Shown: one piece after another, positions 2,322 to 43,998 of the stretch
Position numbering within the stretch: the stretch's first letter is position 1
Layout: every line of letters begins with the position of its first letter
NCBI RefSeq assembly: GCF_004339245.1
Contig: NZ_SMGG01000003.1
Coordinates: 1-64,000 of the forward strand
DNA length: 64,000 bases
Direction of reading: 5' to 3'
DNA from: Seleniivibrio woodruffii
GTDB taxonomy: Bacteria; Chrysiogenota; Deferribacteres; Deferribacterales; Geovibrionaceae
Notes under the pieces: generated by a model
The model's database searches: none
The model's input: the letters and a program-made list of their open reading frames with translations, nothing else
Told to the model about the DNA's origin: nothing
Position numbers and translations under genes: made by a program

Positions 2322-4040
2322 ATGGAAGAAATACTGAATTCAATATCCAGCGCAGGGATCAAAACCGCCCCTGAGAAACAGGCCGACATAACCGCCCTGC
2401 CCTCTTATAAGGGCAACTTCGGGTTTTACCACGTTAAGGGCGAAGACTGGGAAACAGTCATTATTAAAGGCGTGTTCAAGGACAATCTGCGCAACATAAA
2501 AGGCAAGTGCATGATCCCCGACAGGAAGATGAACGAGCTGGCACAGATGCTTTCCGATGTTGAACGCTGTCTGCGCAAACCTGCCTCAGTTCAGGTGTGT
2601 TTTGATGATGACAGCTTCTTCGTATGCGCTGCCGAAGAGGGAAGCTATACAAAGCTGGCTTATGATTCAAGGGATTTCACCATCAGATTCCCGCTGACAC
2701 CCGTTGAGGAATCGCTGGGACGCTCATCCTCCATCAGCGAAAAGTACCTCTTTGCAAGGTCGCCCTTCGCATCAATGTTCGGAGAGATTCTCAGCCCCTA
2801 CGCCTATTCGCTGTTCGAAGCGATGCCCGACGTCTTCTCCCCGCTCTTCATGAGTGCTGACATCAAGACCCATTCGCCGTCGGTTAAGACAATTTTCGGC
2901 AGAGTTCTCATGAATTCCAAAAATATTGAGACCATAATGTCGGCGTTTTACACCAAGCCGGATTTTTTCTATCTGAATTATCTGCCGTCAATATATAAGT
3001 CCATAAAAAAACCTGTGATGGAAGTTCCAAAAATATCTGTTCTGAAACTGGCCGAGGATGAACTTAAAAACACAATTGATGATATAGACAGGGTCACAGA
3101 CAGCCTTGACGAAGCGGCTCTGTTCAACAACGAGTTTCTCGAAGTGCCTATGCTGGGCGTAATGGCCTGGGAAATTGCTGTAGCAGGTATGTGGCACGCT
3201 TTCACCGGGTTTGCAAAAGCAACCGGGCTTGGACACGAAGATGCCATGCGTCATATATATAAGACGAGAAAGGGCGGGCTACTGAGATATGAAGGAGAGA
3301 TAATGCCCCGACTGGATCCGGCTTTCGAGCCTGTACGGCTTGAACCTGTTGAACTTGCCGCTGAGGATGCGGACGGGTTTTACGGCTCACTGTCGTCCAT
3401 CAAGCGTCTCATGCTCTCTAAAGTGAAGTACACAGCTCTGCTTGAGCAGACGCACAAGGCGCTGGATGATGCCGACAGGGTATATCTGTCACTCTCAGGC
3501 CTTGCCTCAAAGATACGCAGTGTTCTGCTGACCACAGCAGACAGACTGGTTGAAGACAGAATGCTCACCGACAGAAACGATATCTTCCTCCTTGAACATA
3601 AGGAGATACAGAACCTCATAAACGATTCTTTCTACGGCAACATCACTTTTACCCTTAATTTCCGCAGATGGCAGGGCAGCCGTTTCGCCTCTGTCTGTCT
3701 TCCGGCGTATCTTTACGAAAAGGACGTTGAAAACTACAAAGAGATAGCGGAAAAGCAGATGAGCAAATCCCTTAATGAAAAGATCATCCCATGCATGGCT
3801 TTTTTCCATAAGGACACAGAAACGGTGAATTTTGCATGCAGGTACGGGTTTTCCATTGCGGACGTTAAAGAAGCTGTTAAGGCCGACATTGTTGTGGCCG
3901 AGTCCGCATCGGTCTTCTCATACATTGCCCAATACTGCGCCACAACGGACAAGCCGCTCTACACAGGGGCAAGATTCGCACCCCTGCTGCTCAGGGACAA
4001 AAAACTGAAAACCGGAACGGATTCACTCACAATCGTCTGA
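2322..4040 (+). CDS. degenerate PEP-utilising-enzyme-like protein
   Basis: A 572-aa cytosolic protein, not confidently assignable. The segment around residues 415-435 (MLTDRNDIFLLEHKEIQNL) resembles the linker before the swivelling phosphohistidine domain in PEP synthase and rifampin phosphotransferase relatives ('R.DIFFL...EL'). The last ~60 residues look like a remnant of that swivelling domain: 'ADIVVAESASVFSYIAQYC' aligns with 'ADGIVTE.GG..SHAAIVA', but the catalytic His is replaced by Tyr. No N-terminal ATP-grasp is evident. It is therefore probably not an active phosphotransferase and may be a structural or regulatory derivative. It stands alone between convergent and divergent neighbours, with its own promoter and a strong terminator. 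Confidence 0.5.
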   Translation: MEEILNSISSAGIKTAPEKQADITALPSYKGNFGFYHVKGEDWETVIIKGVFKDNLRNIKGKCMIPDRKMNELAQMLSDVERCLRKPASVQVCFDDDSFFVCAAEEGSYTKLAYDSRDFTIRFPLTPVEESLGRSSSISEKYLFARSPFASMFGEILSPYAYSLFEAMPDVFSPLFMSADIKTHSPSVKTIFGRVLMNSKNIETIMSAFYTKPDFFYLNYLPSIYKSIKKPVMEVPKISVLKLAEDELKNTIDDIDRVTDSLDEAALFNNEFLEVPMLGVMAWEIAVAGMWHAFTGFAKATGLGHEDAMRHIYKTRKGGLLRYEGEIMPRLDPAFEPVRLEPVELAAEDADGFYGSLSSIKRLMLSKVKYTALLEQTHKALDDADRVYLSLSGLASKIRSVLLTTADRLVEDRMLTDRNDIFLLEHKEIQNLINDSFYGNITFTLNFRRWQGSRFASVCLPAYLYEKDVENYKEIAEKQMSKSLNEKIIPCMAFFHKDTETVNFACRYGFSIADVKEAVKADIVVAESASVFSYIAQYCATTDKPLYTGARFAPLLLRDKKLKTGTDSLTIV

Positions 4041-4047
4041 ACAAAAA

Positions 4048-4076
4048 AGGCGGGGTTTTGCCCCGCCTCTCTTTTT
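4048..4076. terminator. intrinsic terminator
   Basis: Hairpin AGGCGGGG-TTTTG-CCCCGCCT (4048-4068) followed by CTCTTTTT. It terminates the gene ending at 4040. On the other strand it directly follows the stop of the Ala-rich reading frame and is preceded by an A-run, so it may work in both directions. Confidence 0.85.
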
Positions 4077-6972
4077 ATCTGAACACTATATTAATTCTGA
4101 CCTTTCCGTAGACCTTTATATCCGCCGCCGCTTCAGCAGCAAGCCTTGCCGCCTCTGCCGCTGCCTGCGCCGCCGCAAGCTGTGTCGCCGCATTGGAGGA
4201 TGCTGCGCTTGCGTTCGTGGCCGCCGTCATGGCCGCCTGAACAGCCGCCAGAGCGTCTGCAAGCGCCTGTGCAGCCGAATCGGATATACTCTGTGCCACA
4301 GACTCGGAATCCGCCGCCGCTGCCGCCTGTTCAGCCGCAAGAGCAGCCAGATCCGCAGCTGCCTGTGCAGATTCAACCGCTGAATTTGCCGCCTGAGCTT
4401 TAAGAACAGCCAGAGCATACGCCGAAGACGCTGCCGAAACAGAAGTCTGTGCCTGCTGGCTTGCAGTCTGCGCCGCTGCCTGAGCCGCCGCAAGATCCGT
4501 CATAACTGTTGAACCCGTCAGAACAGATGTGGCTGTGGCAAGGGACAGTGCGTCCTGTGCCGCTGTTTTTGCCGCTTCTGCCTGAGAAGCCGCAGTGCCG
4601 AGATCAGTCAGATGATCTGAAAGCTGACCGTATGCGTTTTCTGCAGCCTGCTTATGAACAACCGACTGAGCCAGAGCCGCATTTGCCGCTTCAAGAGCCG
4701 AATTTGCCGCCGCCAGTGCCGCTGCCTGAGACTCCGCTTCGGCCGCCGCAGCCTGAGCTATCGCCAGAACATCTGCCAGTGACTGCTGCGCCTGAGAGTT
4801 GTATCCGGCTGCTGTGGTCGCCGCCGATGCTGCATAATCACTCGCCTGACCTGCACTCTGAGCATCTCCTGCCGCAGTGTTTGCTGCCGTGAGCACCGAC
4901 TGGGCTATCACCTGAAGCTGAGCGAACAGCTCGTGCTCCGCAGCTTTCTGTGCGGCTGTCTGAGCCGCTGACTGTGCAGTGTTCGCATAGCCGAGTGCCT
5001 GCTGAGCCGCCTGATATGCTTCCGCAGCTTTCGACGCCGCCAGTCCGGCCGCATTGCTGGCCGCTTCCGCTGCCGCTGTTGCAGCCGCCAGTGCCGCCGC
5101 TACTGCCGCCTGTGCCTGTTCAAGATGTGTTTCGGCTATTTCGAGAGCCTGCTGAGCGGCTGTTTTTGCCGCCTCTGCCGCATCTGCCGCAGAATGTGCA
5201 GCCTCCGATGCAACTTGTGTATCCGTCATGGCCTGCATTGCAAGGCCGTTTTTATAGTCTGCATAATTTGCCGCACTCGCAGCTGCTGAGAGTGCGTTGT
5301 TCACCGCTTCCATAGCTGCTGTCTGTGCTGCCGCTTCCGCAACGGCTTCATTTGCTGCAAGAACCGCCGCCTGTGCTGCTGCCTGTGCTGCCGCCTGCGC
5401 TGCCTGTGCCGCAGTTGCTTTGCTTACGGCATCAGCCGCTGCTGTTGCTGCCGCCTGAGCGACCGACTGAGCCTGTGCCGCCGCCGCCTGAACCTGAGTT
5501 GATGTGGACTGGGCAACCTGCTCGGACTGTGCCGCCGCCGCCGCTGTCGCTGCCGCCTGAGCCGCCTGCGCTGCCGCCGCTGCCGCTGCCTGAGCTGCCG
5601 CATTTGCCGCTGCAAGCTGCGCCGTTGTCTGCTGAGATGCCGCCTGTGCCGCCGCTAACGCCGCTTCCGCAGCTGTTTTGGCTGCCTGAGCATTGGCAAC
5701 TCCGTCTCCTGAGGCCTGCTTCGTGGCCAGAAGCGCTGCTTCCGCAGCTGTTTTCTGAGCTGCCGCTGCTGCTGCCGCATCTGAGGACTGGGTCAGCAAT
5801 GTCTGCATCTGGGTTGCCGCCGCCTGCGCCGCAGTGCTCTGCGTTGCCGCAGTCTGTGCCGCTGCCTGAGCTGCTGCCAGTGCCGCCTGGGCTGTTGCCA
5901 GTGCCTGCTCCTGAGATTGTGCCTCAGCCGCTGCCGCCTGTGCCGCTGCCAGTGCCGCCGCCGCCGCTGCCTGTGCCTGTGCGGAGGATATTCCCGCCTG
6001 AGACGCCGAGCCGGATGCGGAAGTTGAGCTTGCCTGAGTGGCCTGTGCGTTAACCGCCGCCTGTGCCGCAGATACTGCCGCTGCCTGAGCTGCCGCCTGT
6101 GCCGCCGCCGATGCTGTATACTGAGCCGCTGATGCCGCTTTCTGTGCTGCTGTCTGCGCCGCTGCTACAGCCGCCTGTGCTGCCGCCTGCGCCGCCTGCG
6201 CTTTCTGTGCTGCGGTCTGTGCAGCTGTCACTGCCGCCTGTGCCGCCGCCTGTGCCGCAGTGTTGGCCGCTTCAGCCGCCGCTTTTGCCGCCTGTGCTTC
6301 AGCTTCTGCTCTGGAGAGAGCCGTTTCGGCCTCCTGCTTTTTAACTATAGCCGCCGCCGCCTGTGCCGCTGCCAGCGCTGCCGCCTCTTGTGCCGCATCG
6401 TATGCGGCTTTTGCCTCAAGGCTGTATGTGCTTGTTGCGAGAGCTGCTTCGGCTGCCTGAGCCGCTGCTGTCTGTGCTTTCGCTTCCTGATCTTTTCTTA
6501 TTGCGTCAGCCTGAGCCTGAGCAGCCGCCTGTGCCGCTGCCTGCGCTGCCGCCTGTGCCGCTGCCTGTGCTGCGGCCTGTGCCGCCGCCGCCTGTGCCGC
6601 CGCCGCTGCCTGCGCCGCCGCTGCCTGTGCCGCCGCCTGCGCTGCCGCCGCCTGTGATGCCGCCTGCGCGGCTGCCTGTGCCGCCGTGTCCGCCGCCGAC
6701 TGAGCCGGCTGTCCGGCTGTACCCTGTCCGGCATTGTCCTGCTGCTGGCCTGAATCCTGTAATGACGATTCTATTCTCTGGGCAGTCTGGGACTGACCTG
6801 TATCTTCCGCCTGAGCGGCTTCATCGCTTCCGGCCTGCTGGAAAGCCGATTCCTCGCTCTGGACTGTATCGCCGCCGGAGTTGCTCTGGGCAACAGGAGG
6901 ACTCGTAAATATTCTCGAATTTGTGGAGATGTCATAAACCTGCGACGGTGCTCCGGTTGAGGAGATGAACAC
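4075..6972 (-). CDS. giant Ala/Gln-rich repeat region (likely 3' part of the FecR-domain gene)
   Basis: 965 codons are open, made mostly of Ala and Gln in repeating 'AAAQAA' blocks, with Ser, Thr and Glu in the later part. This composition predicts very long helices or coiled coils. The C-terminus changes abruptly to a short non-repetitive beta-type tail (KVYGKVRINIVFR). The frame stays open upstream of the first possible start (GTG at 6972) through a Gly-rich stretch (GGGLGAGGLGGGG type) and a Pro-rich stretch, as far as the C9 tract at 7211-7219. There it would join the FecR-domain frame after a change of one base. I therefore read it as the distal part of one ~1,235-aa surface or periplasmic protein. 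Whether it is expressed separately, by slippage or not at all is unknown. GC-rich low complexity makes sequence errors possible. Confidence 0.55.
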   Translation of the reverse strand: MFISSTGAPSQVYDISTNSRIFTSPPVAQSNSGGDTVQSEESAFQQAGSDEAAQAEDTGQSQTAQRIESSLQDSGQQQDNAGQGTAGQPAQSAADTAAQAAAQAASQAAAAQAAAQAAAAQAAAAAQAAAAQAAAQAAAQAAAQAAAQAAAQAQADAIRKDQEAKAQTAAAQAAEAALATSTYSLEAKAAYDAAQEAAALAAAQAAAAIVKKQEAETALSRAEAEAQAAKAAAEAANTAAQAAAQAAVTAAQTAAQKAQAAQAAAQAAVAAAQTAAQKAASAAQYTASAAAQAAAQAAAVSAAQAAVNAQATQASSTSASGSASQAGISSAQAQAAAAAALAAAQAAAAEAQSQEQALATAQAALAAAQAAAQTAATQSTAAQAAATQMQTLLTQSSDAAAAAAAQKTAAEAALLATKQASGDGVANAQAAKTAAEAALAAAQAASQQTTAQLAAANAAAQAAAAAAAQAAQAAATAAAAAQSEQVAQSTSTQVQAAAAQAQSVAQAAATAAADAVSKATAAQAAQAAAQAAAQAAVLAANEAVAEAAAQTAAMEAVNNALSAAASAANYADYKNGLAMQAMTDTQVASEAAHSAADAAEAAKTAAQQALEIAETHLEQAQAAVAAALAAATAAAEAASNAAGLAASKAAEAYQAAQQALGYANTAQSAAQTAAQKAAEHELFAQLQVIAQSVLTAANTAAGDAQSAGQASDYAASAATTAAGYNSQAQQSLADVLAIAQAAAAEAESQAAALAAANSALEAANAALAQSVVHKQAAENAYGQLSDHLTDLGTAASQAEAAKTAAQDALSLATATSVLTGSTVMTDLAAAQAAAQTASQQAQTSVSAASSAYALAVLKAQAANSAVESAQAAADLAALAAEQAAAAADSESVAQSISDSAAQALADALAAVQAAMTAATNASAASSNAATQLAAAQAAAEAARLAAEAAADIKVYGKVRINIVFR

Positions 6973-7135
6973 TCCCTGTCCGGGGCCAATTGTTATTACG
7001 CCGCCTCCAAAACCTCCGCCAAGGCCTCCTCCAAGACCTCCTCCGCCAAGGCCTCCTGCACCAAGGCCGCCGCCAAGGCCGCTGCCGCTATTAAATCCTG
7101 AACCGCCTGTATTAAGAGGTGCTGTCCCGCCGCCG

Positions 7136-7780
7136 CTAAGAACTCCCGCAGGAGCCTGCGGTTCCGGCTGTCCGGAAGCAAAACCGGGGGGCGGTGCAAC
7201 AGGAGGGGGTGGGGGGGGGCGGTGCTATAGCAAGACCACCCGGCTGAGAACCAAACGCAGGCGGGGCCACCGGTACCGGAGCAGGGGGAGGAGGAGGGAG
7301 AAGGGGAGGCCCCACAACCACCAGTCCGCTTATACATTCAACTGTAGTTCCGGTCGGATCCACCATGCCTGCGACCACGGTACCCTTAACGCCTATAACC
7401 GCATTGCTGGTCTTTATTCTGAAATCTCCGGCAACCTCGTGCATCTTCTCAACTTTGAAGAGCACTTTGCCTTTCTGTATCTCTGCATTGAATCCGTCTT
7501 TTGTTCTGTCCTGACCCAGCAGGAGCAGACGGGATTTTTCGAATACTTTTATATCGCTTCCGTCAACAAAGCTCACTTCGGCATAGCCTTTTCTTTTGGT
7601 TCTGAGGATATCGTCAAAGGAAAGATTCAGCCCCTCCTTTGCGACCTTGCCCATAACCGCCTGAGCTTTTACAACATCAACACCGCCCTTCACCACCTTT
7701 ACAGTACCCGCAACGGATGCCGCAAAGACCTGAGAGCTCACCATCATAACCGCAACAAATAACGCCGTAATCCTTTTCAT
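7136..7780 (-). CDS. FecR-domain exported protein (frame broken at C9 tract)
   Basis: The first ~20 residues are a signal peptide (MKRITALFVAVMMVSSQVFA). A FecR-type domain covers residues ~25-145, with the family pattern of short beta-strands: 'GTVKVVKG', 'DDILRTKRKGYAEVSFVDGS', 'VRIKTSNAVIGVKGT'-like text. From ~150 a proline-rich linker begins, and at the C9 tract (plus-strand G9, 7211-7219) the frame shifts into about 30 codons of unlikely Cys/Arg/Ser-rich sequence ending at 7136. With 8 or 11 C instead of 9 the frame would continue into the Gly-rich and then Ala/Gln-rich region to 4075. It starts 17 nt after the TPR-barrel gene and is probably in its operon. FecR domains are known from regulators and from exported structural proteins; the signal peptide supports the latter here. 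Confidence 0.7.
   Translation of the reverse strand: MKRITALFVAVMMVSSQVFAASVAGTVKVVKGGVDVVKAQAVMGKVAKEGLNLSFDDILRTKRKGYAEVSFVDGSDIKVFEKSRLLLLGQDRTKDGFNAEIQKGKVLFKVEKMHEVAGDFRIKTSNAVIGVKGTVVAGMVDPTGTTVECISGLVVVGPPLLPPPPPAPVPVAPPAFGSQPGGLAIAPPPPTPSCCTAPRFCFRTAGTAGSCGSS
7211..7219. repeat. G9/C9 homopolymer between FecR and Ala-rich frames
   Basis: Nine consecutive G on the plus strand (C9 in the coding strand), preceded two bases away by another G5 run. Homopolymers of this length are classic sites of slipped-strand mispairing and also of sequencing error. Losing one base or gaining two would fuse the FecR frame to the 4075-6972 frame. Confidence 0.8.
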
Positions 7781-7797: not shown

Positions 7798-9429
7798 TCA
7801 GTAAGTATAGCTTATGCCGATGTCGAACACTGTCTTGTCATAGGTGTATTCATCGACATTGGAGTTGACATCGGAGTAGGTCACTCCGCCGCTGACGAAC
7901 ATTGAGTTCGTAAGCCTGTATATTCCTTTAAGACCGAGGTTCCAAGCCTTGTCCTCACGGATTATGGCAAGTCCGGGTCTGTTTCTGTCGTCTATCGCCG
8001 AGTTATAGAAATCTGAATAGGTATAGTCGGCGCTCACGCTGAGAGTGAATGATTTTGTGAGTGCAGCCAGAGTTCCCACGGATAAAGTATATGCCGTGTT
8101 GTCCTTGTCTTCGCCGTCGGTATTTTCAACATCAACACCAAGCCCTAGTGAAACAATGTACTTGTCCGCCAGCGTTCTGGAGAGTTCGCCGGAAATGCCG
8201 TACACGTATCCGTCCTTGTCGGCTCTGGGGTCGGGCGAGGCGACATAGCTTCGCTTTTCAAACTTAACGGGAACGTTAAGGCCGTATTCGCCCAGCTTCA
8301 GGTTTGAGGCCAGTTCGGCTCCGAAGCTCTCATAATATTTGCTGTTTCCCAGAGAGAGTATCCCTGCGGTAAGTTTCGGGGTGAAAGATGCTGTATCCGT
8401 ACTGCGGGTGAACTGGACATATGCCTTGTGCATCTCCAGGTCGAAGGAGCTTAAACCTTTTTTCATATTGAAAGACCTGTAGTTCATCAGACCTGCTGAG
8501 AACTTGTCCGCCCACAGAGGATAGAGATTGTATTTCGCATCAAGAACCATCGCCGTCCTGAAACTGGATACGCCGGAGGAGCCTATATCCTCGTTCTCCG
8601 ATCTCACGTTGTCGTCATACTCCTCGGTCAGTCCGGCATAGATGCTGAAAGGACGCTGATAGGATCTGACCTTTTCCAGCTTTTCCTTTGCATCCCCTGC
8701 GGCTGTCTCACCCTTAAAGTTTGCTACCGCTTCATAAACACACTGGAACCTGCCGCTGATGAGGCATATATCCGCTATAAGCGACTGAGCCTGAGTGTAT
8801 CTCTCGGCGTCCGCCGGAGAAACCATTCTGAAATTTGCCAGTGCGCCTGAGAAATCACCTTTTCTGTAGAGCAGCTTGCCCTTTCTGGAGTAATATCCGT
8901 CCTCTTTCGGGGCTTTTTCAAGTTCTGCTTCCGCTCTGTCCAGATCGTTCATGGACATATAGATATCAACAAGGGTCAGCCTCATGCTGACATCGCCTGT
9001 TTTGTCGGTGTAAGCCGTTATATCCGCAAGGGCGCCGTTCATGTCGCCGATGTTAAAATAGGCGAGGCCTCTGAACTTAAGGAGTACCGGATCGGTGTTG
9101 CCCTTGTTTATCTGAGTGTTTGTAACATAGACTATTTCGTCGTATTCCTGATTTTCCAGCATCAGGGTCAGGCCAAGAAAACCCTCTTTGGGCTGATTAT
9201 TTTCAAAAAAGCATATGGATCTGTAGATACTGCCGGATATGCCTTCGGATGCGGAAAGAGCCTTCAGCTCGCTCTCCATTGACCTGCACTTTCCGGCCTT
9301 TATGGCATCAAATACCTTTTGATAAGCACTGTTGTAGTCCCCTATGACAGGATAGTCATAAGCATTGACCACGGCAGGGCAAAAAGCGGCAGCCATCATC
9401 AGCCCTGCGGTGAACACAAATCGACGCAT
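7798..9429 (-). CDS. TPR plus outer-membrane beta-barrel protein
   Basis: A 543-aa exported protein. A signal peptide spans residues ~1-23 (ending VVNA-YDY). Residues ~60-250 form TPR-like helical repeats ('FRGLAYFNIGDMNGALADI', 'YRKGDFSGALANF'). Residues ~260-543 are alternating amphipathic beta-strands ending in an aromatic C-terminal strand (TVFDIGISYTY), typical of an outer-membrane barrel. TPR-then-barrel architecture recalls the surface lipoprotein assembly modulator (Slam, DUF560-type) proteins, but I cannot confirm membership. It is the first gene of a leftward pair with the FecR/Ala-rich gene 17 nt downstream, so it could anchor or export that product. An SD-like GAGGAGA precedes the ATG. 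Confidence 0.7.
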   Translation of the reverse strand: MRRFVFTAGLMMAAAFCPAVVNAYDYPVIGDYNSAYQKVFDAIKAGKCRSMESELKALSASEGISGSIYRSICFFENNQPKEGFLGLTLMLENQEYDEIVYVTNTQINKGNTDPVLLKFRGLAYFNIGDMNGALADITAYTDKTGDVSMRLTLVDIYMSMNDLDRAEAELEKAPKEDGYYSRKGKLLYRKGDFSGALANFRMVSPADAERYTQAQSLIADICLISGRFQCVYEAVANFKGETAAGDAKEKLEKVRSYQRPFSIYAGLTEEYDDNVRSENEDIGSSGVSSFRTAMVLDAKYNLYPLWADKFSAGLMNYRSFNMKKGLSSFDLEMHKAYVQFTRSTDTASFTPKLTAGILSLGNSKYYESFGAELASNLKLGEYGLNVPVKFEKRSYVASPDPRADKDGYVYGISGELSRTLADKYIVSLGLGVDVENTDGEDKDNTAYTLSVGTLAALTKSFTLSVSADYTYSDFYNSAIDDRNRPGLAIIREDKAWNLGLKGIYRLTNSMFVSGGVTYSDVNSNVDEYTYDKTVFDIGISYTY

Positions 9430-9503: not shown

Positions 9504-10445
9504 TTAAGCACTTTTCAGCATTTTTTTGCGGTTAATTATCACCACACCCACAATAACCATCACAATACTAATGATATGCGGTGCACGGAGATATCCTACC
9601 ATAAGGTCGTCGGCTCTGAAAAACGTCACGAAAGCCCTTATCAGACCGTAGAATATCAGATAGTAACCGAGCAGACGTCCGGTTCCTATGTTTTCGGATT
9701 TTCGCCACATTATATATAATGGAACAAAACAGATGAAATTAAGCAGCATTTCATAGATGAACGTCGGATGCACGGGAAGCGCACCGAAGTCGGCATATGC
9801 GGGCGTTCGGGGATAATTTCCGAAGCTCATTCCCCACGGAACGTATTCTTTGAGGGTATATACCTTATTGTCGAAAGTCACCTGCGCAGGCAGTTTGCTC
9901 ATCAACCCCGAAATACTCTCGGGCGTGGGGCTTAAGCCCGTCTGGGAGCAGACGGCTGACCAGAACTCTTTGAACCTGTTCTCAACTCCGAATATCACAG
10001 ACAGAGGAACCACAGTCGGCACGCCGTGCGCCTCGCCGTTTGCAAGGTTTCCTATACGCCCGATACACTGACCGAACATAAGCCAGGGAACCATGCTGTC
10101 TGCCAGGCCTATGAAACTGGCCTTCTTGAACTTCGTGAAGAAATAAAGACCGATGAGTGCGCCTATGATTCCGCCGTGGATGGCGAGGCCGCCATGCCAT
10201 ATGGCTATCATTTCAAAGAAATTACCGTTGTAGTAGTCCCAGCGGAGCGCAACATAATACATACGGGCGCCGATTATGCCCGACATAAAACATATAATGA
10301 CGGCATTCTCCATATCCGTGGGCTTAAGGTTAAGCCTGTCGGCCTTCCGCTTTACCATGAAAATGCCCACAAGAAGAGCAGCGATATACATAAGGCTGTA
10401 TACCCTTAAGTCAAAAGGACCTATTTTGAAAAGACTCGGAAACAT
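9504..10445 (-). CDS. lgt: prolipoprotein diacylglyceryl transferase
   Basis: An inner-membrane enzyme that transfers diacylglycerol from phosphatidylglycerol to the lipobox cysteine of prolipoproteins, the first step of lipoprotein maturation. The 313-aa protein has about seven hydrophobic segments. It shows the family's HGG segment (IWHGGLAIHGG, residues ~83-93) and the Lgt signature GRIGNLANGEAHG (~128-140). Length is slightly above the common 260-290 aa because of an insertion of ~40 residues after the signature (periplasmic arm region). It is transcribed divergently from rpsB with a separate promoter. A substrate in this window is the lipoprotein protease at 26155-27477. Confidence 0.95.
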   Translation of the reverse strand: MFPSLFKIGPFDLRVYSLMYIAALLVGIFMVKRKADRLNLKPTDMENAVIICFMSGIIGARMYYVALRWDYYNGNFFEMIAIWHGGLAIHGGIIGALIGLYFFTKFKKASFIGLADSMVPWLMFGQCIGRIGNLANGEAHGVPTVVPLSVIFGVENRFKEFWSAVCSQTGLSPTPESISGLMSKLPAQVTFDNKVYTLKEYVPWGMSFGNYPRTPAYADFGALPVHPTFIYEMLLNFICFVPLYIMWRKSENIGTGRLLGYYLIFYGLIRAFVTFFRADDLMVGYLRAPHIISIVMVIVGVVIINRKKMLKSA

Positions 10446-41320: not shown

Positions 41321-43998
41321 TGAGCCTTGCTCGTTCTATATCAGCTTCAAACGCTGAAAAATACTATTATGAAAAAGACCCGCTCCTTAGTAAAGAACCT
41401 GAAGGCAACTCAAAATGGCAAGGACAAGGTGCTGAAAAGCTGGGGCTAAATGGACAAGTATCGAAAGATACCTTTGTAAAAATACTTGATGGTAGGCATC
41501 CAGAGACTGGTCAAAGGTTAGTTGCACTTGGAGTAAATGGTGAACACCGAGCTGGAATAGATTTTGTCTTCTCACCGCCTAAAAGCGTCTCTATATATGC
41601 ATTACATGGCGGACACGCTGAAATACTCAAAGCTCATCAAGAAGCTGTCAGAGACACGATAAAACATATTGAGACCATTGTTACCTCAAGAAGCACGGAG
41701 AATGGTCAAACAAAATATCAGAATACTAGCAATGTTGTAGCCGCGACATTTATGCATTCCACATCCAGAGCCAATGATCCGCAGCTACATACACACGCAA
41801 TAATTATGAACATGACAGAATCCAACGGAGAATGGAAAGCAGTCTCAAATGAATCCCTATTTATTTCTCAAAACATTATCAATCAGGTTTATCAGAACCA
41901 TTTGGCTCAAAATATTGTTGAGCTTGGATATAGTATAGACCGCAGAGGATCGTCATTTGAGATATCTGGCTTTAAACAGGAGTGGATTGATCAATTCTCT
42001 AAAAGGTCAGATGAGGTCACAAAATACCTGAATGAAAATATTGATAAACTACGTGAACAGTATCCTGAAGCCTCAGAGCAGAAGTTAAAAGACTTAGCTA
42101 TTTTGGCCAGCAGAGATGAAAAAGACAAATCCATTACCTCAGCAGAATTGAAAGACCTGTGGGAATCTCAGGTCAGCCGAGACAGCATAGAACAAGCCGT
42201 CTGTAATTCCATTGAGCAGCAACTTCAAAGCTACACATTAGAAAAGACAGCGGATCTTATTACAGAAAACCAGAACACTTTTACAAAAGAACTGTTCGCA
42301 GAAACATACCTCAAGCTAAATGTTGGCTCACGCACTATTGAAGATTTCAAAATAGAGCTCCAAAAGTCTCTTTCAAATGAACAAATTCAAAAAGTTGGAG
42401 AAGTCCCAACAAGAATAGGCGCTCGGACAATCAATTTACCGCAAGCGATCTACACAACAGCCAATGTAATAGAAACAGAAAAAGCGATTCTAAACACTAT
42501 TGAAAACCAGAAGAGTATCAAATCATATATGACGGCTGAACTGGTGAGCCAGTATCTTGAAAACACCTCATTGACTGCTGGACAACAACAACTTGTAGAG
42601 CATATTGCAACTACAGATAAACGATTCTCATTTATTCAAGGAGACGCAGGAACGGGCAAAACATATGCTCTGGATATGGTTGCGAGCATCTTGCAGCAAG
42701 AATCTGAAGTTAAGATTATCGGAGCCTCATTCACAGGGAAAGCCGCCGCAGAAATTGAGGAAAAAACTAGCGGTAATATTCAGGCTCATACACTCCATAG
42801 CCTTCTGAACAACTGGGATCAGCATATTAAACTTGATCAAGCATCACTTCTTATCGTTGATGAAGCTTCGATGATTTCATCTAAGCAATTCGCATCTATT
42901 ATTGCACATGCTCAACAAACTGACACCAGAGTCATATTTATAGGTGATACAAAACAGCTTCAGCCAATTCAGGCTGGGCAAATTTTCAAAGACGCTATCG
43001 ACAAATTCGGTGCAGACGTAGTTCTCTCTGAGAATTTACGTCAACAGACCTCACTTGCTCAAGAGATAGTCGGATCGGTTAAAGATTACCACCAGGGAAT
43101 AAATGATAATGGTGTACATCAAGCTTTTTCATCGTTATCTGCCAACGACAAAATTCATGAACAATCGGATTTCACCAGCAAAGCTATTAAAGACTATATT
43201 TCAAATATTCAGGCGAATAAGGATACCTTGCTTCTGACACATAAGAATGACCTTAAAGATACATTGAATATTAATATTAGAGATCGTCTATTAGATAGCA
43301 ACACTCACCGTTTTGAACTCACTGTCAGAGAACAGATAAATATTAGCCAAACCGATAAATTTAATTCACACAGCTATGAAGCTGGACAGAGCATATTTAT
43401 AACAGCAGCCATTGATAATTTTAAAGCTGGCTCAGAATGGCAGATTTCATCTATAGACCATGAAAACAACAGCCTTAATGTCATAAATCCCAAAGGCTAC
43501 ACTGAATCAATCGACCTATCGGAACACGGAAACCACATTTCAGCATTTACAGAGCAGACAAAAGAATTCGCCATAGGAGACAAAATAGTCTTCGAAAAGA
43601 ATGATTACCTTATTGATGTCAAAAATGGGCAGACAGGGCAAATAGAGAGCTATGAGAACGGTATTCTCTCAATCAACAAAGACAACGGCGATTCAGTTAA
43701 TTTCAAACCTGAAAACTATAATTACCTTGATTATGGGTACGCTCTGACAGTCCACAAAGCTCAGGGGCAGACATGCGACACTGTCCAGTATGTCACCGAA
43801 TCTAACGACAAAATGATTAATTCTGAAAGCTTCTACGTGGCAATGACCAGAGCCACAGATGACATAAACATATACACCGATGACGCTGACAAACTCGCAG
43901 ATCGGGCAAGCATTCATGAAAACGAAATATCGCTTCATGACATGCTTGAGAACACCAACACCCACGAAACAGAAATTGACAACCAGATAGAATTTTAA
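41320..43998 (+). CDS. MobF-family conjugative relaxase-helicase
   Basis: Nicks and unwinds the element's DNA at oriT for transfer. About 892 aa. The relaxase domain has an N-terminal Tyr cluster (EKYYYEKD) as catalytic residues and the metal-binding three-His cluster ('FMHSTSRANDPQLHTHAII'). The RecD-type helicase domain has Walker A 'GDAGTGKT' (~residue 445), Walker B 'LLIVDEASMIS', and the C-terminal 'VHKAQGQTCDTV' and 'FYVAMTRATDDINIY' motifs. TrwC and TraI are known relatives; this one is somewhat shorter than TrwC. I choose the ATG at 41320 (AGGA 7 nt upstream, TAATG overlap with the HTH gene); 41314 is a possible start two codons earlier. Confidence 0.92.
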   Translation: MSLARSISASNAEKYYYEKDPLLSKEPEGNSKWQGQGAEKLGLNGQVSKDTFVKILDGRHPETGQRLVALGVNGEHRAGIDFVFSPPKSVSIYALHGGHAEILKAHQEAVRDTIKHIETIVTSRSTENGQTKYQNTSNVVAATFMHSTSRANDPQLHTHAIIMNMTESNGEWKAVSNESLFISQNIINQVYQNHLAQNIVELGYSIDRRGSSFEISGFKQEWIDQFSKRSDEVTKYLNENIDKLREQYPEASEQKLKDLAILASRDEKDKSITSAELKDLWESQVSRDSIEQAVCNSIEQQLQSYTLEKTADLITENQNTFTKELFAETYLKLNVGSRTIEDFKIELQKSLSNEQIQKVGEVPTRIGARTINLPQAIYTTANVIETEKAILNTIENQKSIKSYMTAELVSQYLENTSLTAGQQQLVEHIATTDKRFSFIQGDAGTGKTYALDMVASILQQESEVKIIGASFTGKAAAEIEEKTSGNIQAHTLHSLLNNWDQHIKLDQASLLIVDEASMISSKQFASIIAHAQQTDTRVIFIGDTKQLQPIQAGQIFKDAIDKFGADVVLSENLRQQTSLAQEIVGSVKDYHQGINDNGVHQAFSSLSANDKIHEQSDFTSKAIKDYISNIQANKDTLLLTHKNDLKDTLNINIRDRLLDSNTHRFELTVREQINISQTDKFNSHSYEAGQSIFITAAIDNFKAGSEWQISSIDHENNSLNVINPKGYTESIDLSEHGNHISAFTEQTKEFAIGDKIVFEKNDYLIDVKNGQTGQIESYENGILSINKDNGDSVNFKPENYNYLDYGYALTVHKAQGQTCDTVQYVTESNDKMINSESFYVAMTRATDDINIYTDDADKLADRASIHENEISLHDMLENTNTHETEIDNQIEF

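Follow-up and report, generated by a model that had tools for sequence, protein, structure and literature searches.

Does the run of nine cytosines at which the FecR gene of this DNA changes its reading frame separate two genes or interrupt a single one, and is such an interruption a switch, an error or a one-way break? The window, which is the whole 64,000-nucleotide stretch that was analysed, is the start of a 1.28 Mb contig of a 2.9 Mb genome. The gene order on its minus strand is the lgt-like gene, the TPR-barrel gene, the FecR ORF, the Ala/Gln ORF and the terminator (Table 1). When the sequence is re-read, the C9 tract is located at 7211-7219 of the minus strand, as given in the earlier note, and a pattern search of the 2.9 Mb identifies it as the only C/G run of nine in the genome. 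The Ala/Gln frame is open from just 5' of this tract, with its last upstream stop at about 7227. The frame change must occur within approximately 86 bases (7139-7224), which include the C9 tract, because the two open frames overlap only there. The claim that the FecR protein changes frame at a homopolymer is therefore borne out, and the joined reading of 1235-1236 residues in either joined frame agrees with the length of about 1,235 aa that had been proposed. A minus-strand terminator is not found between the FecR and Ala/Gln frames.

Table 1. Positions of the features of the split gene and its neighbours in the window
Feature	Position	Strand	Remarks
Intrinsic terminator	4047..4069	.	Works from both sides; directly 3' of the Ala/Gln stop
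Ala/Gln ORF	4075..6972	minus	965 aa; frame adjacent to the FecR frame
C-terminal beta-strand tag	4078..4122	minus	DIKVYGKVRINIVFR; common to the C-termini of all intact family members
Ala/Gln-rich core	4123..6687	minus	855 residues; from composition and periodicity
Linker, Pro-rich then Gly-rich	6973..7210	minus	In the Ala/Gln frame; without a start codon
FecR ORF	7136..7780	minus	214 aa; last ~25 residues, past C9, out of frame relative to relatives
C9 homopolymer	7211..7219	minus	Pro-codon linker; site of the reading-frame change
FecR domain (PF04773)	7319..7609	minus	Pfam E 7.7e-14; second search 2.7e-14
Sec-type signal peptide of the FecR protein	7721..7780	minus	MKRITALFVAVMMVSSQVFA; ~20 residues; by eye
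TPR and outer-membrane beta-barrel protein	7798..9429	minus	543 aa; Pfam matches; stop 17 bases before the FecR start
lgt-like gene	9504..10445	minus	Conserved upstream neighbour; synteny in L033-L042 and L044

Almost certainly, the FecR and Ala/Gln frames belong to one gene, the product of which carries a conserved C-terminal tag and which has the TPR-barrel gene as its neighbour. In G003 and G004, which belong to the same genus, the gene at the same locus is a single uninterrupted ORF of 820 and 1203 aa, respectively. The proteins encoded by these ORFs consist of a signal peptide, a FecR domain, a Gly-rich linker and an Ala/Gln region, and end with D[IV]KIYGSVKINITFK. The downstream frame in the window is homologous end to end with the continuous ORF of these relatives, indicating that the frame layout is not due to chance. 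The Ala/Gln ORF shows 53% identity to that of G004 over 952 aligned codons, with a dN of 0.47, a dS of 1.82, which is near saturation, and a dN/dS of about 0.26. Thus, one reading frame yields an intact conserved protein. The Ala/Gln frame contains 965 codons without a stop and shows no other damage. According to a simple count, about 290 single changes could each create a stop in the 965 codons, and in a neutral Ala/Gln frame the first stop is expected by about 0.03 substitutions per site. Comparison of the open frame with this neutral expectation indicates that the break is recent, or that some cells still translate the frame.

The reading preferred for the break, with a probability of roughly 0.38, is that the C9 tract is real DNA, is unstable in length owing to its length, and makes the gene a low-grade contingency locus in its 'off' length. 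The tract is a long simple repeat within the ORF, and is long enough for instability, because tracts of this kind vary in other bacteria. Tracts of at least 8 are mostly variable in N. meningitidis (PMC5084427), and long C/G tracts are polymorphic in Bordetella pertussis, in which three of them vary within single-colony cultures (PMC1891110). It is plausible that the gene is phase-variable. A purpose-evolved phase switch, that is, one that has been selected, is a minority reading inside the length-unstable one and perhaps takes a small share of the whole. A C/G run of at least 6 is not found in the copies of this gene in G001, G002, G003 and G004, with one genome compared per species, and a genus-wide switch at C9 is therefore excluded. 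A scan of genome contigs for sequences of the same species returned only one sister species. The mutS and mutL genes are intact in the genome, which counts against a specialised switch, because mismatch repair usually lowers slippage. The proposal of a phase-variable surface protein in the earlier note thus stands in so far as there is one gene, its break lies at a homopolymer, and its product is exported, probably to the envelope or surface. However, phase variation itself is not established, since the tract is seen at a single length, is limited to this genome among the relatives, and mismatch repair genes are present.

A doubtful but serious alternative is that the break is an assembly or sequencing error, so that the tract is in frame and the full-length protein is always made. 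Nine-base homopolymers are a classic site of consensus errors, the downstream frame shows no decay, and the gene is intact in the relatives. The other C/G runs found in the genome by pattern searches are one C8 and about 34 C7. The C8 and 25 of the C7 were inspected; 22 of these 26 runs, the C8 included, are located in frames of at least 180 aa, and the other four fall in short frames or have no clear gene around them. The C8 lies in an intact plsX-like ORF, and none of the 26 runs is accompanied by a split comparable to that of the C9 gene, although all these controls are shorter than C9. This result disfavours an assembly that is generally bad at homopolymers. The assembly completeness of 100% also argues against an error.

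It is unlikely, though in keeping with a second break in the genus, that the frameshift is a recent one-way event by which the Ala/Gln part is being lost and that switching is not selected. The G002 copy (L035, G002:C11, 7310-8272) has its own frame break just before the C-terminal tag. Its FecR ORF ends with ...GGGFAPPSAG-stop, the break site being GGGG followed by TGA, and the family C-terminal motif survives in the neighbouring frame, in the tail ...GNHSVDINIIIR-stop. A motif of this form is found in 0.045% of shuffled tails. Two of the four assessable genus copies are therefore intact, and the other two are cut from the C-terminus by frame breaks at unrelated places, as expected of a long form that is dispensable in some niches. 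The G001 copy is left out of this count, because it is cut off where its contig (G001:C4, L044/L002) ends, at 42115, among the first residues of its Ala-rich region; the repeats there probably broke the assembly. The presence of mismatch repair also fits a one-way break. In contrast, the 965 codons without other damage do not, and the breaks in both species could each be errors. Both breaks may be errors, or they may result from relaxed constraint or from recurrent switching. The G002 break counts against the length-instability reading as well, because the run at that site is short, and hypermutation of a long tract does not explain a break at a short run.

A programmed +1 frameshift, in which ribosomal or RNA polymerase slippage would give a short and a long product from one allele, is very improbable. 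This genome (G000) and G002 both reach the downstream frame by the same +1 step, at a run of CCC codons and at GGG-TGA, respectively, and +1 shifting at sites of both types is known in other genes. However, the two sites are not homologous and no shift is needed in G003 and G004, so that a conserved programmed frameshift is rejected. Least credible of all, and rejected, is a pair of separate genes, one for the FecR protein and one for an independent Ala/Gln protein starting from GTG 6972, the earliest possible start in the Ala/Gln frame, because the ORF is continuous in G003 and G004, this GTG aligns with an internal codon of the continuous proteins in the conserved block G-x-G-Q-G-[AV]-F, the Ala/Gln ORF has no signal peptide, no spaced ribosome-binding site is found before GTG 6972, and a weak promoter-like match at 6935-6908 sits downstream of it.

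The TPR-barrel gene is located directly upstream of the FecR gene in 12 of 12 family genomes, and we infer that the two genes are in the same operon. Pfam searches with the TPR-barrel protein of the window give matches to SlipAM (E 1.2e-6; 28.7 bits, above the cut-off of 22, covering part of the profile), TPR_19 (2.5e-6) and BBP2_2 (2.4e-4). When the aligned barrel copies of the family are compared, BBP2_2 and TPR_19 are detected in all 11, and SlipAM in one of the 11. In a structure model, the TPR half is confident, and a fold search with this half returns generic TPR proteins. For the barrel half, with a pLDDT of about 24, and for the FecR domain, with a mean of 35, the models are of too low quality to be used. 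In G011, only the C-terminal 319 residues of the barrel protein are in one ORF. The lgt-like (265 aa) and TPR-barrel (319 aa) ORFs of this genome (G011:C3, L036, 1408-3936) both look N-terminally shortened, possibly by frame breaks or sequence problems. The product of the lgt-like gene in the window is presumably similar to prolipoprotein diacylglyceryl transferase, as judged from its sequence. On the other side of the split gene, the terminator also serves a convergent gene on the plus strand (2322-4040). This gene encodes a 572-aa protein that is found near the same place in most family genomes, and the C-terminus of which weakly matches phosphoenolpyruvate synthase models (E 2.4e-5).

A comparable pair of genes is found outside the family. 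In G046 and G047, which represent another family of the class, a barrel homologue adjoins a FecR protein ending with PAVKIIVK. G049, which belongs to the same phylum, encodes a SlipAM protein of full length (52 bits) directly before a 704-aa FecR-domain protein (G049:C5, L091, 3956-7389 for the pair), and this is possibly a type 11 secretion pair with a FecR cargo. The FecR protein of the pair shows a weak, sub-threshold C-terminal match to a TbpB barrel.

The nine intact family copies (G003-G011) have lengths of 257-1203 aa and all terminate in an amphipathic strand of approximately x-V-x-I-N-I-x-F, and both broken copies (G000 and G002) keep this tag in the other frame. Pfam searches of five intact family members give no match for the C-terminal eight-stranded barrel of type 11 cargo; a short strand-like motif is located there instead. 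The region between the FecR domain and the tag differs completely across the family. In one genus it is rich in Asp and Gly, in another it is short, and here it is rich in Ala and Gln. In G011, G009 and G007 (L036, L037 and L038), for example, GDQGDGDQGDG repeats are among the Asp/Gly-rich sequences that lie between the same FecR domain and the C-terminal tag. The Ala/Gln core of the window consists of 48% Ala and 13% Gln, contains no Pro over its 855 residues, and has a 3.5-residue (heptad) periodicity, from which it is predicted to be a long helix or coiled coil. By our own estimate, this core would be about 128 nm long if extended, at 1.5 angstrom per residue, and would far exceed the width of the periplasm. 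A second FecR-domain protein of the genome (231 aa; G000:C4, L043, 4664-5359) has neither an Ala/Gln region nor a tag.

The gene would therefore be expected, from the layout of its product, to encode a Sec-exported protein composed of a signal peptide, the FecR domain, a Pro/Gly linker, an Ala/Gln helix of about 855 residues and the amphipathic tag. The most likely location of the TPR-barrel protein is the outer membrane. As the partner of the FecR protein, it probably anchors or exports this protein through the C-terminal tag, by analogy with type 11 secretion, in which a Slam-type barrel moves a protein encoded beside it (PMC12282271). The FecR/TPR-barrel pair is accordingly proposed to work like a type 11 secretion pair, but is not filed as a member of type 11, because type 11 cargo is defined by an eight-stranded barrel, which the tag is not. 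The helix may form an extended structure of the envelope or, putatively, of the surface. In this genome, the gene being out of frame at C9, the product would be a FecR stub that lacks both the helix and the tag. It is improbable, although conceivable, that a FecR surface fibre with the conserved tag is displayed by a dedicated TPR-barrel protein, type-11-like but outside Proteobacteria, and that recurrent frame switching in the genus, at C9 in one species and at a different site in another, provides a stub/fibre switch in a phylum of free-living environmental bacteria. The FecR protein does not have the arrangement of a FecR anti-sigma factor, which is a membrane-spanning protein beside FecI. 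Its N-terminus is a signal peptide, as judged by eye, and an ORF for a FecI-type sigma factor is not found beside the gene by position and synteny.

If the tract switches, it would represent a contingency locus in an environmental Deferribacterota lineage, for which host immunity is no obvious driver. Apart from the switch, the locus offers a FecR/TPR-barrel pair in which the strand tag is conserved and the low-complexity middle can expand; this pair seems to be a display or export system of the outer membrane that has yet to be described. Neither a FecR/Ala-Gln protein nor the surface proteins of Seleniivibrio could be traced in the literature searched. The pair with its conserved C-terminal strand is a more durable lead than the switch.

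The split gene resembles the slipped-strand poly-C/G contingency genes of Neisseria, Campylobacter and Bordetella in that a unique long C tract lies in the ORF of an exported protein, and in that one frame is full length and the sequenced frame is not. It differs from them in that mismatch repair is present, the tract is not conserved in the relatives, and the genome contains a single tract of this kind. The gene pair shares with type 11 secretion (Slam/SlipAM, PF04575) the side-by-side position of two genes, one for an outer-membrane protein with TPR and barrel parts and one for a protein that is exported, and the barrel of the window passes the SlipAM cut-off. In contrast to that system, all the aligned family barrels match BBP2_2 and a single one of the 11 matches SlipAM, and the FecR protein carries a short strand tag in place of a C-terminal eight-stranded barrel. 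The long, Pro-free, Ala-rich helix is, by description, like TolA domain II and other Ala-rich envelope helices, but the core of the window is rich in Gln rather than Lys and Glu, and its 855 residues are more than a crossing of the periplasm needs. LipL45 and Lsa33 of Leptospira, which are FecR-domain surface proteins, likewise have an exported FecR domain that does not serve as an anti-sigma factor, and the protein of the window matches their NCBIfam models with E-values of 5e-7 and 1.6e-7, at scores far below the family cut-offs.
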